Assembly (NCBI GenBank): GCA_963681505.1
Contig: OY811972.1
Coordinates: 3,703,332 to 3,767,331 of the forward strand
DNA from: Eunapius fragilis
Taxonomy: Eukaryota; Porifera; Demospongiae; Spongillida; Spongillidae
Reading direction: 5' to 3'
DNA length: 64,000 nucleotides
Shown: positions 57,075 to 63,042 of the stretch, piece after piece
Position numbering within the stretch: position 1 is the first letter of the stretch
How the letters are laid out: each line of letters starts with the position of its first letter
Notes under the pieces: generated by a model
Database searches by the model: none
Told to the model about the DNA's origin: nothing
The model's input: only the letters and a program-made list of their open reading frames with translations
Program-made: the position numbers and the translations under genes

Positions 57075-57302
<228 letters not shown>

Positions 57303-58038
57303 AAACAGTTACACACCGGTGCGCAATCAGGGATCGAGAATAGCTGCCTTGCGCTGCCTCAGGATGTTAACAGCCCTTGGAAAAGTTACAAACGGGTGAC
57401 GCTAGCTATGCATCTGGAAGCCATTTTTTTAAAGAAAAAAAAAACAAATGGCGTAATGCCTAAATCCAATGTAAACAACTGCTCTCAGCTCGTACGCATT
57501 TTTGCTCTCAGCTCCTGCGCGTTTTTGCTCTCGGACCATACGCAATTTTGCTCTCAGACCGTACGCAATTTTGCTCTCAGACCGTACGCAATTTTGCTCT
57601 CGGACCGTACGCAATTTTGCTCTCGGACCGTACGCAATTTTGCTCTCGGACCGTACGCAATTTTGCTCTCAGACCGTTGCTCGTACTCATTTTTGCTCTC
57701 AAACCGCTGCTCGTACCCGCGACCTACCGGGCCACCGTAGAAAGAGGATATTGTGGCCGTTGATCGAAAAACGTTTAGGAGTGACGTGTGGGAACATTTT
57801 GGGTGGTACAGGAAAGCTCCTGGGTTGTATCAGCCTGGTTGTATGCAACATGAAGTCCACTTCCCTCATGTTGCCAAACTGGCAAGGAAGTACCTATCAA
57901 TTCCAGCCTCCACTGCACCTGCAGAAAGGGTTTTCTCCACAGCCAAAAATATACTCCAGAAGAAACGATGGAGGATTCTGCCAGAACGACTGGGGAAATG
58001 CATATTCCTGAGGCATAATGCTAAATTGTTTTAATTAA

Positions 58039-61000
58039 CACCGCGTCCGTGAAATTCGAGCACCTTTTAAGCCCATTTTGTCGAACTAGTAAAAACAAAA
58101 AATAGTCTCATTAGGTCCCTTACTAAAAAATAATATTAGGTGTTTTGAAACAACTCTCTGCATAGCGTATGGCACAATTTGCAGTATTATATCTATAGCT
58201 GATCGCAGCCTGCATTTATTTGAAGCCGCGAGGTTTAGCCCGTACCGATAAAAGGTACACTTTTTTTGTACTGCTTTTAACACTCCAAAACAAATGCAGT
58301 TTGTTGAATTAGAACTATGAAAGCCTATAGGTTATAAAAACGTATGTTTCCTATGCACGCGCCAACGTTTGCACTCGTGTCTTTTACCAAACGATTGCTC
58401 AACAGCTTTCTTTCTCGTACCCAGTCCTATTTACGTCAATTCATTGCGCACTTGCTCATATTATAACAAACAAATTGGCATGTGTTGTACTATCAGTGTC
58501 TGATTTTATCCATGTGTTCCTTGGTACGAATTATGAGCTCAGGTTTGTTACCAGTTTTTTTCAGACTGTGATGGCAAAGATAGGCTTGAAGCTCAAGCTT
58601 TGTCCACATAGTGAGGTCCTTTTGCAAATCACAATCCTGGTAAGATACCTTAGCCTTCTTGGTTCCATAGTCTGCTACATCATCCGCACGAGGCCTTCCA
58701 CGCTTCTTACATGTACCAGCACATTCTGCCTGTGGTTTGCTACCAATTCTTTGGTACACTGCCCGTATCTTCCCAGGAAGTGGAAGCTCACTTAGTCGAA
58801 TTGCCTTCTGTAGCTGCATTTCATCCAACCTGGCATAAACACCATCAGCTGATATCTTAACATTACCATGTTCTTTATTGTCTCCTGCTTTCCAGCATTC
58901 TTGGATGACATTGGTAACCTTGAAGGAGAGCTCTGGGTGCATTTTTTTTTTTGTATGAGCCCAACCTGCATAAAAGTTTGGCTCAAATGTTGCGTATGTT
59001 GCTTCACCATCACCCAAGAACATACTTGCACTTTGATCAATTGCACCAGCAATGGAGAAGTCCATCCTAGCTAGAAGTTGATCAGCATGTTTCATTGCAA
59101 TGTTAATAGCATCTTGAGATTCTGCATTCTCATTGCACACATGCTGTTCAAGGAGATGTGGTGATCTGAAATGGTACAAACACTTGGCACATTGTGGATA
59201 AATGGCTCGAATTTCATCTAAGGCTTTCTCATTGTTACTTTGCATTTCTTTGCGTAGCTTCTCTCGTTTACTGACATCAGAGATACTCCTTTTGTACCTC
59301 TTTTTGTACTTCTGTGCCTGTGCGCGGTTACTGTTGTCATCACTGTTGAGAAGCACAGTGACACCTGTAAAGTTGATGTTCACAGAGCCCATCCCCTCTG
59401 TCATGGAAACTGCTTGGCATGATGGGATCGATACAGACTTGGATGGTACCATCTGCCCCAGACTGTTGTAAAATCGAATTATTTTCTGATCATCCATGGT
59501 TGTCACATACTGTGCTGCATAGAAATCCGAAATACCCATAATGGTGGGAATAACAGCAAACCGATACGGGGCCTTGAAATCTAACTTAACCAACAACACT
59601 GTTGAATTGCGTACAGGATTCTCCATCAATGCCACAGCAAGCTGCTTAGGTGTTGACACCTTTCTTCCTCCCTCTCCCTGGACAAGGTAGTTATCCACAT
59701 GAGTTTGCTGGTGCGAGAAGTGCGTGTCGCACACATCTTTTCCACTTTGGGCTTCGTTGTGAAAATAGGCCACAAGCTTTAGCCCTGAAGCACTACACAC
59801 ATGTGGCAGGAACAGCTTGGTCTGCCGGCCAGCTAAGTTCTTCGCATTGTCACTTTGAACAATGATCTTCTCAACATGGGGGAACCGTAGCTTCAAGGCA
59901 CGAAAAGCTGCCTCCAAACAAGATAGTACAACATTGGCATCCGCTTTCTGCTCTCCTTCTACGATACAGTCTATGAAATGCAGATTCACTTTATCTTGAG
60001 TGCTATCAGTTTTCTCTTCATCTGTTTCATCGACTTGCTCAGAAGTGATACATCCCTGCTCTTTATCACTGGCATCATCTTCAATCTCATCTTGCAGCAT
60101 ATTTTCACCTCCATTCTGTGTGTTTTCTTCTATCTCATTTTCACCTTGAACATTACGCATGACAAACCCCACCTTACATATAGCCCTCACATCTTGCTCA
60201 CTGTCACAATTTTCACCCTGATTGTCAAGCTGATCTTGCTCACTATTACCCTCAACACACTCTTCACCACTCTTGACATCATCTTCATCACTTTCATCTT
60301 GCTCATCATCCACATTGACCTCATTCACCAGCTGCATAGTATGCTGCTGTGATTGAGATTCATTGGCTGTAAAGTCTATCACCACATGCAGTTTCTCATC
60401 TCGGGACCCATCACCCTCATCATGCACTCCATCTGTATCTGACTTTACATGAACACCAGCACCCCACCACAACATACCCTTCTTTCCATAATAACTGTCA
60501 CCACCTTCACGAAAACCCTTGGCAAGAAACTTTTGCTTGAAGTCAAAGACTAAATATGCAGTTTTGGAGTCCATTTCTGCCATGGCTTGCTTCATCCTGT
60601 GCTCCTGATGGGCAGCCTGCATAACATGAGCCATGTAGCGATAAGACCGGCGCTCGCACTGATGAATGGTCACAAGTGCATCCGAAATTTCAGCCAACCT
60701 ACTGGGGTCTTCATCTAGCTTGGACAGGGCCACATGCCTCAGCTTATCATAAAATAGATAAGGGCCTCGGCAGGCACAGCATTCCAGGCGACCACCGGGT
60801 TTAGGCTCCTTGCTTGGCTTTTTGTCAGGCACAAGATCAAGCGAAAATCCTGGCGAGTGTGTGGTAGCACTTATGCTTTCATTGCGTTCCAACACTACAC
60901 CAACAGCTTTAGCACAGGAACTGAGCTGGCTTCGAACCTGGTTCACAACTTGTTGCTGTATTGAAGACTCTACAAACCTGTCTGGATATTGAACTAACTC

Positions 61001-62792
61001 ATTCAATTTCTGGTAAGCTCTAAACTGTTGAACATCATGTTCCTGAGAATGATGCATTGGAAGGCACACCAATTCCGCATCAAATGCATTGACACCCTCT
61101 CTCACATGGACCCCATAGCAGTAGTTGAGAAATGTATATGCATCAGACCGGAGACTGTACAAAGTGTCACGTAATGAATGGTCTACATCTGCGAGAGGTG
61201 CAAGCACATCGATTACTTTGTCAACAATGACAAAGTTATCTTTATGAAAGTTGACCTTAATATAGTCAACCCCAGCCCGAGCTTCATGATGCTTGCCACC
61301 ACCAGTGATGTGGTTAACAATATCATAGAACAGGGTTCTTCCCACTGGTTTTTTGCCAGGCATCTCCTCAGTGTGCTTGTCCAAGTACACTTTGTACATT
61401 GTAGAGATGTCATGCCTGAGTACCAAGGACTTCATTGCATGTATATTCTTCAGATCCTTCCACCTTAAATCCTTGTTTGGAGCACGCTTTTTGGCTTGCC
61501 ACGCAAGGCGGCATATGTTGTCATTGCTGTACACATAGTTTACAACATAGTGAATGCTATCCTCACTTACACGAGAGTGTGTCTCAGCATAATTCTGAAG
61601 ATTCAAACCATGTGAAAGATACAGTTTGTCTACCTTAGCTTGAAACATAATGTGTTTTACATAGCCAAGATTCAGTGTGAGAAGGGATGCCACGTATTTC
61701 CTTGGTGCATCTGCTAGAGGCACAAGTAGTCGTCTTGCATTCAAAGAGGTGAAACGTTTTTCACATTTCAATGCATCTCTGATATTAGAGGTTATGCTGG
61801 TGAGCATTGTAGTAGCAGATGGCGGGAGATCATCAGAGAGAAAATCTGTTTCAGTGACCTGCAACTGGTCTAATGGAGCCAGAATGGATTTAAGACTGAA
61901 AACCTTCTTCACCTCACAATGGTTCTTCAGATTCCAGTTAGGAACCAACATTCGTGCCCAGGCCAGGATGCCACTAACAAACACTTTCTCTATTCTATTC
62001 ATGGTTGAAATATCAACATCATCATCAGATCGCATATGCTGCCTTATCTCAACACTTGGAAGCCGCCGCACAAAGGTTTCATGTCCCCTAGATCCCATGG
62101 CTTCCAGTACCTTCAATATCTGTGCCTGAGTTGTGGAATCGATAACTGAAATAACTGGGTCATCATCTTCATCGTCCGCGACGGCAGTTTCATCAAGATC
62201 GACTCTAGCTGCTGCGTGCTCCGGGCTGATTGGCACAGCAACCTTCTTCGGCCTACCACGTTTGCGATCGATGCATCTGCAGCACTTGGTACAATGTGTT
62301 CCTGCATCACATTTGTCACAAACTGACTTTCTATGTTTTTCGTAACACGCAAGCCGCGGCATGCCATACAAGTAAGTATATATCGGACGAACAAGTTAAT
62401 TAACCGATGTGGACTGGTATGAATAAATTATATTTCAGTACGAGCTAAACGTTCAGTTTGTACACCTAAAGAAGCTGAATTTAGACGTGATACTGCCTAG
62501 ACTCTCTAGTTAGGCAAAAATAAATGGGCAGGGTGTGCCCAATTCGAACACAACGGTCTACAAAAAAAGTGTACTATGCAACCACTTACCGTTAAGAAAA
62601 TGCGAACCGTGTTACTTTAAATACATACATCGCACGATTGGTTGTAACTATTATAGTGGGGATTTCTTCAAACATATAAGCGAGAGTTGGGCTTTCTTTT
62701 GATGTATTTTACACCTCACATACTAATAGTGAGACTAATTTTCTATTTCACGAGTTCGACAAAACAGGTGCTCGAATTTCACGGACGCGGTG
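58039..62792. mobile_element. Complete 4754-bp TTAA-flanked DNA transposon
   Basis: The perfect 27-bp terminal inverted repeats begin CACCGCGTCCGTGAAATTCG. The element is flanked by TTAA (58035-58038 and 62793-62796). Two internal inverted motifs are placed symmetrically: TTTTGTCGAACT at 58076-58087 against 62753-62764, and a perfect 16-mer GTACACTTTTTTTGTA at 58255-58270 against 62559-62574, 216 and 218 bp from the ends. One intact gene fills the minus strand, with an AATAAA at about 58215-58220 downstream of it. It lies one base after the hAT stop codon. TTAA targets occur in piggyBac, Kolobok and Sola3; the gene does not look like piggyBac to me. Superfamily unassigned. Confidence 0.93.
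58493..62371 (-). CDS. DDE-like transposase with Cys cluster, AT-hooks, zinc finger and SAP domain (1292 aa)
   Basis: A single uninterrupted exon. N-terminus: cysteine cluster (C9, C18, C21, C27, C30, C31, C33), then an AT-hook RKRGRPKK (36-43). Around 540-560 there is a CCACRGPYLFYDK Cys motif. Candidate catalytic residues: D610 in LVFDFKQKFLAKGFREGG (followed by YYGKKGMLWWG), D841 in IIVQSDNAKNLAGR, and D882 in CDTHFSHQQTHVD. An acidic, low-complexity insert (about 680-790) separates the first two. Then a C2HC finger CAKCLYHFRSPHLLEQHVC (about 1059-1077), a second AT-hook KKRGRPRAD (about 1221) and a C-terminal SAP-like helix pair LELQAYLCHHSLKKTGNKPE (about 1260-1285). The FREG...GKKG, QDNA-like and CD...H order matches a transposase-like family I remember from cnidarian and fish genomes. 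Catalytic assignment is inference. Confidence 0.85.
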   Translation of the reverse strand: MYGMPRLACYEKHRKSVCDKCDAGTHCTKCCRCIDRKRGRPKKVAVPISPEHAAARVDLDETAVADDEDDDPVISVIDSTTQAQILKVLEAMGSRGHETFVRRLPSVEIRQHMRSDDDVDISTMNRIEKVFVSGILAWARMLVPNWNLKNHCEVKKVFSLKSILAPLDQLQVTETDFLSDDLPPSATTMLTSITSNIRDALKCEKRFTSLNARRLLVPLADAPRKYVASLLTLNLGYVKHIMFQAKVDKLYLSHGLNLQNYAETHSRVSEDSIHYVVNYVYSNDNICRLAWQAKKRAPNKDLRWKDLKNIHAMKSLVLRHDISTMYKVYLDKHTEEMPGKKPVGRTLFYDIVNHITGGGKHHEARAGVDYIKVNFHKDNFVIVDKVIDVLAPLADVDHSLRDTLYSLRSDAYTFLNYCYGVHVREGVNAFDAELVCLPMHHSQEHDVQQFRAYQKLNELVQYPDRFVESSIQQQVVNQVRSQLSSCAKAVGVVLERNESISATTHSPGFSLDLVPDKKPSKEPKPGGRLECCACRGPYLFYDKLRHVALSKLDEDPSRLAEISDALVTIHQCERRSYRYMAHVMQAAHQEHRMKQAMAEMDSKTAYLVFDFKQKFLAKGFREGGDSYYGKKGMLWWGAGVHVKSDTDGVHDEGDGSRDEKLHVVIDFTANESQSQQHTMQLVNEVNVDDEQDESDEDDVKSGEECVEGNSEQDQLDNQGENCDSEQDVRAICKVGFVMRNVQGENEIEENTQNGGENMLQDEIEDDASDKEQGCITSEQVDETDEEKTDSTQDKVNLHFIDCIVEGEQKADANVVLSCLEAAFRALKLRFPHVEKIIVQSDNAKNLAGRQTKLFLPHVCSASGLKLVAYFHNEAQSGKDVCDTHFSHQQTHVDNYLVQGEGGRKVSTPKQLAVALMENPVRNSTVLLVKLDFKAPYRFAVIPTIMGISDFYAAQYVTTMDDQKIIRFYNSLGQMVPSKSVSIPSCQAVSMTEGMGSVNINFTGVTVLLNSDDNSNRAQAQKYKKRYKRSISDVSKREKLRKEMQSNNEKALDEIRAIYPQCAKCLYHFRSPHLLEQHVCNENAESQDAINIAMKHADQLLARMDFSIAGAIDQSASMFLGDGEATYATFEPNFYAGWAHTKKKMHPELSFKVTNVIQECWKAGDNKEHGNVKISADGVYARLDEMQLQKAIRLSELPLPGKIRAVYQRIGSKPQAECAGTCKKRGRPRADDVADYGTKKAKVSYQDCDLQKDLTMWTKLELQAYLCHHSLKKTGNKPELIIRTKEHMDKIRH

Positions 62793-63042
62793 TTAAATGG
62801 CTTGCATGCACCGAATGCACGCGTACATTTATCGCCATTTCAAATACACATGCTGATATTTCGTTATTACTCTAATTTCTGCCAATCACCGTGATTTTCC
62901 GTCTATTTCCGCGCAAGTTTTTATCATGAAAACCCCCCAAAAATATCGCGAAACGCCAAAAAAAAATATCGCGATATATAAAAAATATCGCGATATATCG
63001 TATATCGCGATATATCGCGGCAGCCCTGCCGGGCGGCCTGTA

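Follow-up and report, generated by a model that had tools for sequence, protein, structure and literature searches.

An intact, recently mobile TTAA-flanked DNA transposon of Eunapius fragilis whose predicted 1289-residue transposase matches no Pfam transposase profile

What kind of DNA transposon lies between positions 58039 and 62792 of the analysed stretch of the Eunapius fragilis genome (64,000 nucleotides of contig OY811972.1, referred to here as the window), and could it still move? An original prediction, made from the letters alone, had described perfect 27-bp inverted ends flanked by TTAA, and had suggested that the element may still be mobile. The element and its borders can be delimited as follows.

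58035-58038 (no strand): left target-site duplication, TTAA
58039-62792: DNA transposon, 4754 bp, with perfect 27-bp inverted ends and TTAA on each side
58039-58065 (+): left terminal inverted repeat, 27 bp, perfect, CACCGCGTCCGTGAAATTCGAGCACCT
62766-62792 (-): right terminal inverted repeat, 27 bp, perfect
62793-62796 (no strand): right target-site duplication, TTAA

Comparison of the inverted arms and reading of full-length copies bear out these ends. With the TTAA included, the arms span 34 nt (58035-58068 and 62763-62796) and are 97% complementary, and their first 31 nt (TTAA plus the 27 bp) are perfect. The insertion adjoins the 3' portion of a hAT element, the C-terminal dimerisation region being encoded at 57753-58034 (Pfam E 3.3e-14), and the right flank begins at 62797. 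This 282-bp 3' piece has 41 genome matches, of which 17, counting that of the window itself, are full-length with 98-100% identity, and the host hAT element represents another DNA transposon family with recent activity in the genome. Since the hAT element is multicopy and the insertion lies at its edge, the pre-insertion state could be sought, and the empty site GCTAAATTGTTTTAATTAAATGGCTTGC was found in both other hAT copies examined (L056 on contig C14 and L057 on C9), with the joined longer flanks matching them at 96% over 434 columns and 97% over 412 columns, respectively. Because both read left flank, a single TTAA and right flank, the insertion duplicated exactly TTAA; the duplication is precise.

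The genome searched comprises 219 Mb in 24 contigs, and the left 256 bp of the element have 39 matches in it. Six full-length copies of the family, here called F1, were read (L009-L014, L013 being the window copy); they lie on five contigs, have TTAA at both ends in every case, and their flanks are all different. The other five differ from the window copy in 4, 11, 57, 19 and 33 of about 4762 columns (0.1-1.2%), of which 4, 11, 13, 9 and 16, in the same order, are substitutions, and at positions 58943 and 61838 the window copy differs from all five. Three of the six (the window, L009 and L010) retain the stop-free frame of 1300 codons, the longest stop-free stretches in the other three being 983, 1093 and 812 codons; a further copy, L015, is an internally deleted derivative of 2185 bp, again with TTAA at both ends. 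Thus, the genome does hold other copies with the same ends and TTAA, in addition to partial and related ones, and the suggestion of continuing mobility gains support from the dispersed near-identical copies, the open frames and the empty sites. The element is an intact, recently mobile TTAA transposon.

It is also not alone. In a protein search of the genome, which scored 36 of the 845 candidates from a first look and therefore gives minimum family counts, three further families were recovered at 60-66% (F2), about 51-60% (F3) and 38% (F4) protein identity, several of their members having stop-free frames of 1348-1389 codons. The two-ended copies of F2 (L049), F3a (L050), F3b (L051) and F4 (L053, L054) are bounded by TTAA in five of five cases, and CACCG stands inside the TTAA at all of their ends except a single F2 end, which has CATCG. 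The two F4 copies are identical over 4971 bp, and two F3b copies have diverged by 0.0204 at synonymous sites (dS; 17.5 differences in 868 sites) and by 0.0055 at non-synonymous sites (dN; 17.5 in 3194). Three places first read as short miniature inverted-repeat transposable elements were found to adjoin F2 coding sequence, and are thus F2 ends. The end pattern TTAACACCGNNTCCRTGARAA, with one mismatch allowed, occurs 516 times in the genome (273 + 243) versus 0 for its backwards control; among 100 of these matches listed and inspected by eye there are 12 facing pairs 4.8-5.3 kb apart and 8 at 1.15-1.26 kb, the latter probably non-autonomous derivatives. An element class of about 1.24 kb with TTAACACCG ends (for example C1:18952258-18953511, C2:981739-982993 and C4:639244-640477), in which the ends are of two sequences, CGCGTCC at one and GGATCC at the other, probably consists of non-autonomous derivatives as well. 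A domesticated host gene whose repeats arose by duplication could account for a conserved protein under purifying selection; however, it would have to accommodate six copies on five contigs with common ends and TTAA, different flanks and empty sites, as well as the 516 related termini, and we regard it as extremely improbable.

What, then, does the element encode? The stop-free frame at 58493-62371 (-) is the only one of more than 300 codons in the element. The predicted frame of 1292 codons indeed has no internal stop, but it starts at TTG, and the first in-frame ATG, at 62362 and close to where full-length relatives also start, gives 1289 residues. Residue numbers below follow the 1292-codon frame from its TTG, and fractions are the rows of the protein alignment in which a residue is conserved.

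58493-62362 (-): transposase gene, single open frame of 1289 residues, ATG at 62362, stop at 58493-58495; frame also open in L009 and L010
62234-62347 (-): N-terminal Cys/His cluster C9 H13 C18 C21 C27 C30 C31 C33 with first AT-hook (residues 36-46), from column conservation over 19-26 rows
60542-60544 (-): D610, first candidate catalytic Asp (DFKQKF), on predicted strand b1 (79/82; model m41a93586fe8f)
59990-60409 (-): acidic insert of variable length, lying between strands b2 and b3 of the model (about residues 655-794), from alignment and model
59849-59851 (-): D841, second candidate catalytic Asp (QSDNA), immediately following predicted strand b4 (85/90)
59726-59728 (-): D882, third candidate catalytic Asp (GKDVCDTH), its role putative, at a helix start after predicted strand b5 (84/92)
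59135-59191 (-): C2HC-type finger C1061-x2-C1064-x2-H1067-x9-H1077-x-C1079 (60/61, 60/61, 62/62, 57/60 and 60/60)
58982-58984 (-): E1130 (ATFEPNF), invariant (46/46), alternative last catalytic Glu
58532-58618 (-): C-terminal SAP domain, residues 1252-1280 (Pfam E 0.0057 in this protein, below cut-off)

The domain set that had been read from the sequence stands in part. The Cys cluster and the C2HC finger are conserved in relatives, and the SAP domain, weak in the window protein, is clear in them, with matches in 14 of 27 alignment members and a best E of 7.5e-10; the AT-hooks are the less certain portion, the first having a Pfam AT_hook E of 0.07, below its cut-off, and the second (GRPRA at residue 1225) having been assigned by eye. 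The three aspartates D610, D841 and D882 are likewise conserved in relatives. As for the proposal that they belong to an RNase H fold, two AlphaFold models do order the core in that way, but at low confidence (predicted local distance difference test, pLDDT, 51 and 45). The third acidic residue is most likely D882, and its distance from D841 would make this a DD41D transposase. One relative, P0008 (EukProt Em0155g5a), carries an acidic insert of great length built from QQHEDEDGD repeats, which indicates that the acidic spacer varies freely; the C-terminus of the same protein consists of an LSELPIR repeat where others have SAP.

Outside this genome, two protein searches (39 proteins in one; 120 of 126 matches listed in the other) returned named relatives exclusively from Ephydatia muelleri, most matches being unnamed; the attribution follows NCBI names of the form 'hypothetical protein EMCRGX_...' or EukProt 'Em' identifiers, which were read as that species. 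Identity to these proteins is 36-77% across the aligned part; the full-length ones share the Cys cluster, the motifs and SAP, but no listed source name says transposase or transposon. The E-values of the 120 listed matches end at 3.8e-38 (7992 candidates sharing most words were scored), such that no weak, more distant relative is among those 120. A pattern search picked out 175 stretches in viral contigs and 188 in prokaryote genomes, of which tblastn identified none as a relative.

The original prediction had also pointed to two extra inverted motifs at matched distances, about 37 and about 217 bp, from each end, and this is confirmed by a 38-nt inverted pair with 82% match (58076-58113 and 62727-62764) and a perfect 16-nt pair (58255-58270 and 62559-62574). 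The motifs are given here with offsets counted from the first base inside the TTAA.

58078-58086 (+): TTGTCGAAC, offset 40, as also in F2 and F3b
58098-58107 (+): AAAA(A/T)TAGTC, offset 60, as beyond the gene's stop in F1, F2, F3a and F3b
58150-58157 (+): ACAACTCT, offset 112
58255-58270 (+): inner inverted motif GTACACTTTTTTTGTA, offset 217, from inverted-pair and shuffle comparisons
62559-62574 (-): inner inverted motif, right copy, offset 219
62683-62690 (-): CCAACTCT, offset 103
62733-62742 (-): AAAATTAGTC, offset 51
62754-62762 (-): TTGTCGAAC, offset 31

The offsets at the two ends of F1 are thus 40 and 31 for GTCGAAC, 60 and 51 for AAAATTAGTC, 112 and 103 for CAACTCT, and 217 and 219 for GTACACTTTTTT. 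In F1, F2, F3a and F3b alike, the end beyond the gene's stop is the longer side by 8-9 bp, AAAATTAGTC keeping offsets of 60/51 or 60/52; in F3a the gene is oppositely oriented in its locus, and the offsets are exchanged accordingly. The inner motif lies at 217-220 in ten of ten ends, with two letters changed in F3a and F4. Conservation of the remaining motifs is uneven: a search allowing two mismatches recovered no GTCGAAC in F3a or F4, CAACTCT was not found at one end of F2, at one end of F3b or in F4, and AAAATTAGTC was not found in F4. When the longest word shared by the two ends was compared with 300 dinucleotide shuffles, none of the 300 reached it in F1, F2, F3a or F3b, and the F4 end pair was at background (45 of 300). 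The motifs resemble protein-binding sites that are paired and phased, and that differ inherently from one end to the other in their spacing.

To which superfamily could such an element belong? No Pfam transposase profile matched the window protein or the 27 alignment members at E<=1, the scope to which the original claim that no named superfamily can be identified is hereby upheld; the 18 Pfam families that those 27 members did match include no hAT, MULE or P transposase model and no KDZ (Kyakuja-Dileera-Zisupton) or CxC model. The window protein had no NCBIfam transposase match. A sequence search of the PDB gave no transposase among 14 rows at E<=10, the best two and most others reflecting the acidic tract, and Foldseek searches of the PDB with the two models returned nothing at E<=0.001, although RuvC, RSV integrase, Mos1 and IstA were among the rows at E 0.17-2. 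A VIA second look placed no piggyBac, hAT, P or Transib among the 50 rows listed, an absence that proves nothing, and a search of the literature listed no title describing such an element, most subscription papers being outside its coverage.

An outlying piggyBac transposon is one alternative. Both systems have a TTAA target and its duplication, a single transposase gene, a DDD-type site (proposed here) and shared repeats differently spaced at the two ends, and according to PMC7351741 the triad and the unequal ends with internal repeats are features of piggyBac, whose unequal organisation is required in cells. However, the piggyBac profile PF13843 is not matched by the window protein or the 27 members at E<=1; one protein hit, P0038, does carry it, yet covers just 19% of the query, and therefore looks like a fused gene model. 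Moreover, where piggyBac has a C-terminal cysteine-rich domain, the C-terminus here is SAP and the conserved cysteines are at the N-terminus and at 1061-1079; D841 and D882 are 41 residues apart versus 101 for D346 and D447 of piggyBac; the protein, at 1289 residues versus 594, is more than twice as long; and the element ends start with CACCG. We consider a piggyBac origin very improbable.

A divergent Kolobok is the second alternative. In PMC9587614, Kolobok is described as having TTAA duplications and a C/DxxH motif, followed in most lineages by a zinc finger that precedes the last catalytic Glu, and its termini are given as 5'-RR; AG termini are given for ten Xenopus elements in PMC6004289. 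The TTAA duplication is common to both, as the copies and empty sites demonstrate, and CDTH (881-884), the C1061-C1079 finger and E1130 occur here in that order and are conserved. Against this, the termini of the six F1 and five other two-ended copies (F1-F4) read 5'-CA ... TG-3' and not 5'-RR ... YY-3', and the usual THAP domain is absent from the Pfam matches of the window protein and the 27 members at E<=1. A comparison group, used here as a presumed stand-in for Kolobok, was found from L058, one of two loci (L058 and L059, at C1:14751933 and C7:6032886) whose 966-residue open frame carries the Mutator-type domain PF20700 (E 6e-14). In it, CGGH follows the second Asp by 22-24 residues, whereas CDTH follows D841 by 40-43 and the predicted strand b5 by about 10, and no profile similarity to this presumed stand-in was found (Prob 3 and 0.3). 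Taken together, a Kolobok affiliation seems improbable to us. The C-terminal part of L058 and L059 appears, by eye, OTU protease-like, and these two copies are 99.7-100% identical over 5.9 kb and more.

The third candidate is Sola, a DDD superfamily with 4-bp duplications, TTAA in the case of Sola3. A very divergent Sola lineage (Sola3 especially) would share with our element the 4-bp duplication and the triad, to be formed by D610, D841 and D882. For Sola2, 4-bp AT-rich duplications are given in PMC3627910. The genome contains an abundant transposase-like group with the motif SDG...HGK..ADG, which a hand-written motif consensus locates at 146 places (E<=1) and of which one member, L064 (C3:7033400-7036400), was read; it has terminal inverted repeats of about 540 bp with ends 5'-GGGTAGTTCT, five places have open frames of 772 codons, and no Pfam transposase profile matched. 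We presume this group to be Sola-like. The same SD-x35-GKxxxD spacing is present in L064 and in 61 of 140 proteins of our family (many of them fragments) versus none of 52 controls, and when aligned permissively with hhalign the two groups run colinear for 418 columns, in which the first two Asp face each other but the third does not. Nevertheless, the similarity is not significant (Prob 0.2-2): the hhalign score exceeds 60 of 60 shuffles, yet among 52 proteins from another transposase group two score as high; one of the 60 shuffles and five of those 52 proteins attain the summed probability of L064; and scores from hidden Markov model, local and ungapped profile comparisons do not rise above background. 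In addition, the L064 ends read 5'-GGGTAG, and there is no TTAA beside the right one. The spacing match is suggestive and the resemblance to L064 a lead; a Sola affiliation remains in our estimate rather unlikely.

How the element would move can nonetheless be outlined. It is very probably a cut-and-paste DNA transposon with TTAA as its target, autonomous and active in recent time, whose single 1289-residue transposase would have an RNase H-type DDE/D active site, and it most likely works like piggyBac or Kolobok. The gene is read from the right end inwards, and the N-terminal Cys cluster, the AT-hook, the C2HC finger, the C-terminal AT-hook and SAP could bind the phased subterminal sites as well as the 27-bp ends. 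The two ends would be synapsed in a complex able to tell them apart, because the site spacing differs by 8-9 bp, whereupon the active site of D610, D841 and most likely D882 would cut at the TTAA borders. The TTAA duplication would arise as the ends are joined, at a stagger of 4 nt, to another TTAA. By analogy with piggyBac, it is plausible that a hairpin forms on the transposon and that the donor site is repaired seamlessly to a single TTAA.

The odds that this transposon founds a superfamily of its own and those that it is a strongly diverged branch of Sola or Kolobok are, in our judgement, about even. One reading, possible rather than probable, is an undescribed DDE/D superfamily, so far known from sponge-like genomes alone, that would be characterized by TTAA targets, 5'-CACCG ends, up to four phased motifs with an 8-9-bp asymmetry, and a DD41D protein of about 1300 residues with SAP and, within the catalytic core, an acidic spacer, and that would have several recently active lineages, down to 38% identity, within one genome. 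If confirmed, it would be another independent solution to TTAA-specific transposition. Its activity would be directly testable, since dispersed near-identical copies keep open frames, and it might also serve for gene delivery in sponges. The asymmetry of the ends, preserved between families that share 55-66% protein identity, also offers a natural comparison to piggyBac.

Finally, the surroundings of the element contain several repeats. Just left of the hAT piece, at 57480-57677, lie 8.6 copies of a 23-bp tandem repeat, TGCTCTCAGACCGTACGCAATTT, with CA repeats at 57076-57128 and 57197-57301, and the right flank carries an array of the short palindromic ATATCGCGATAT at 62961-63017.
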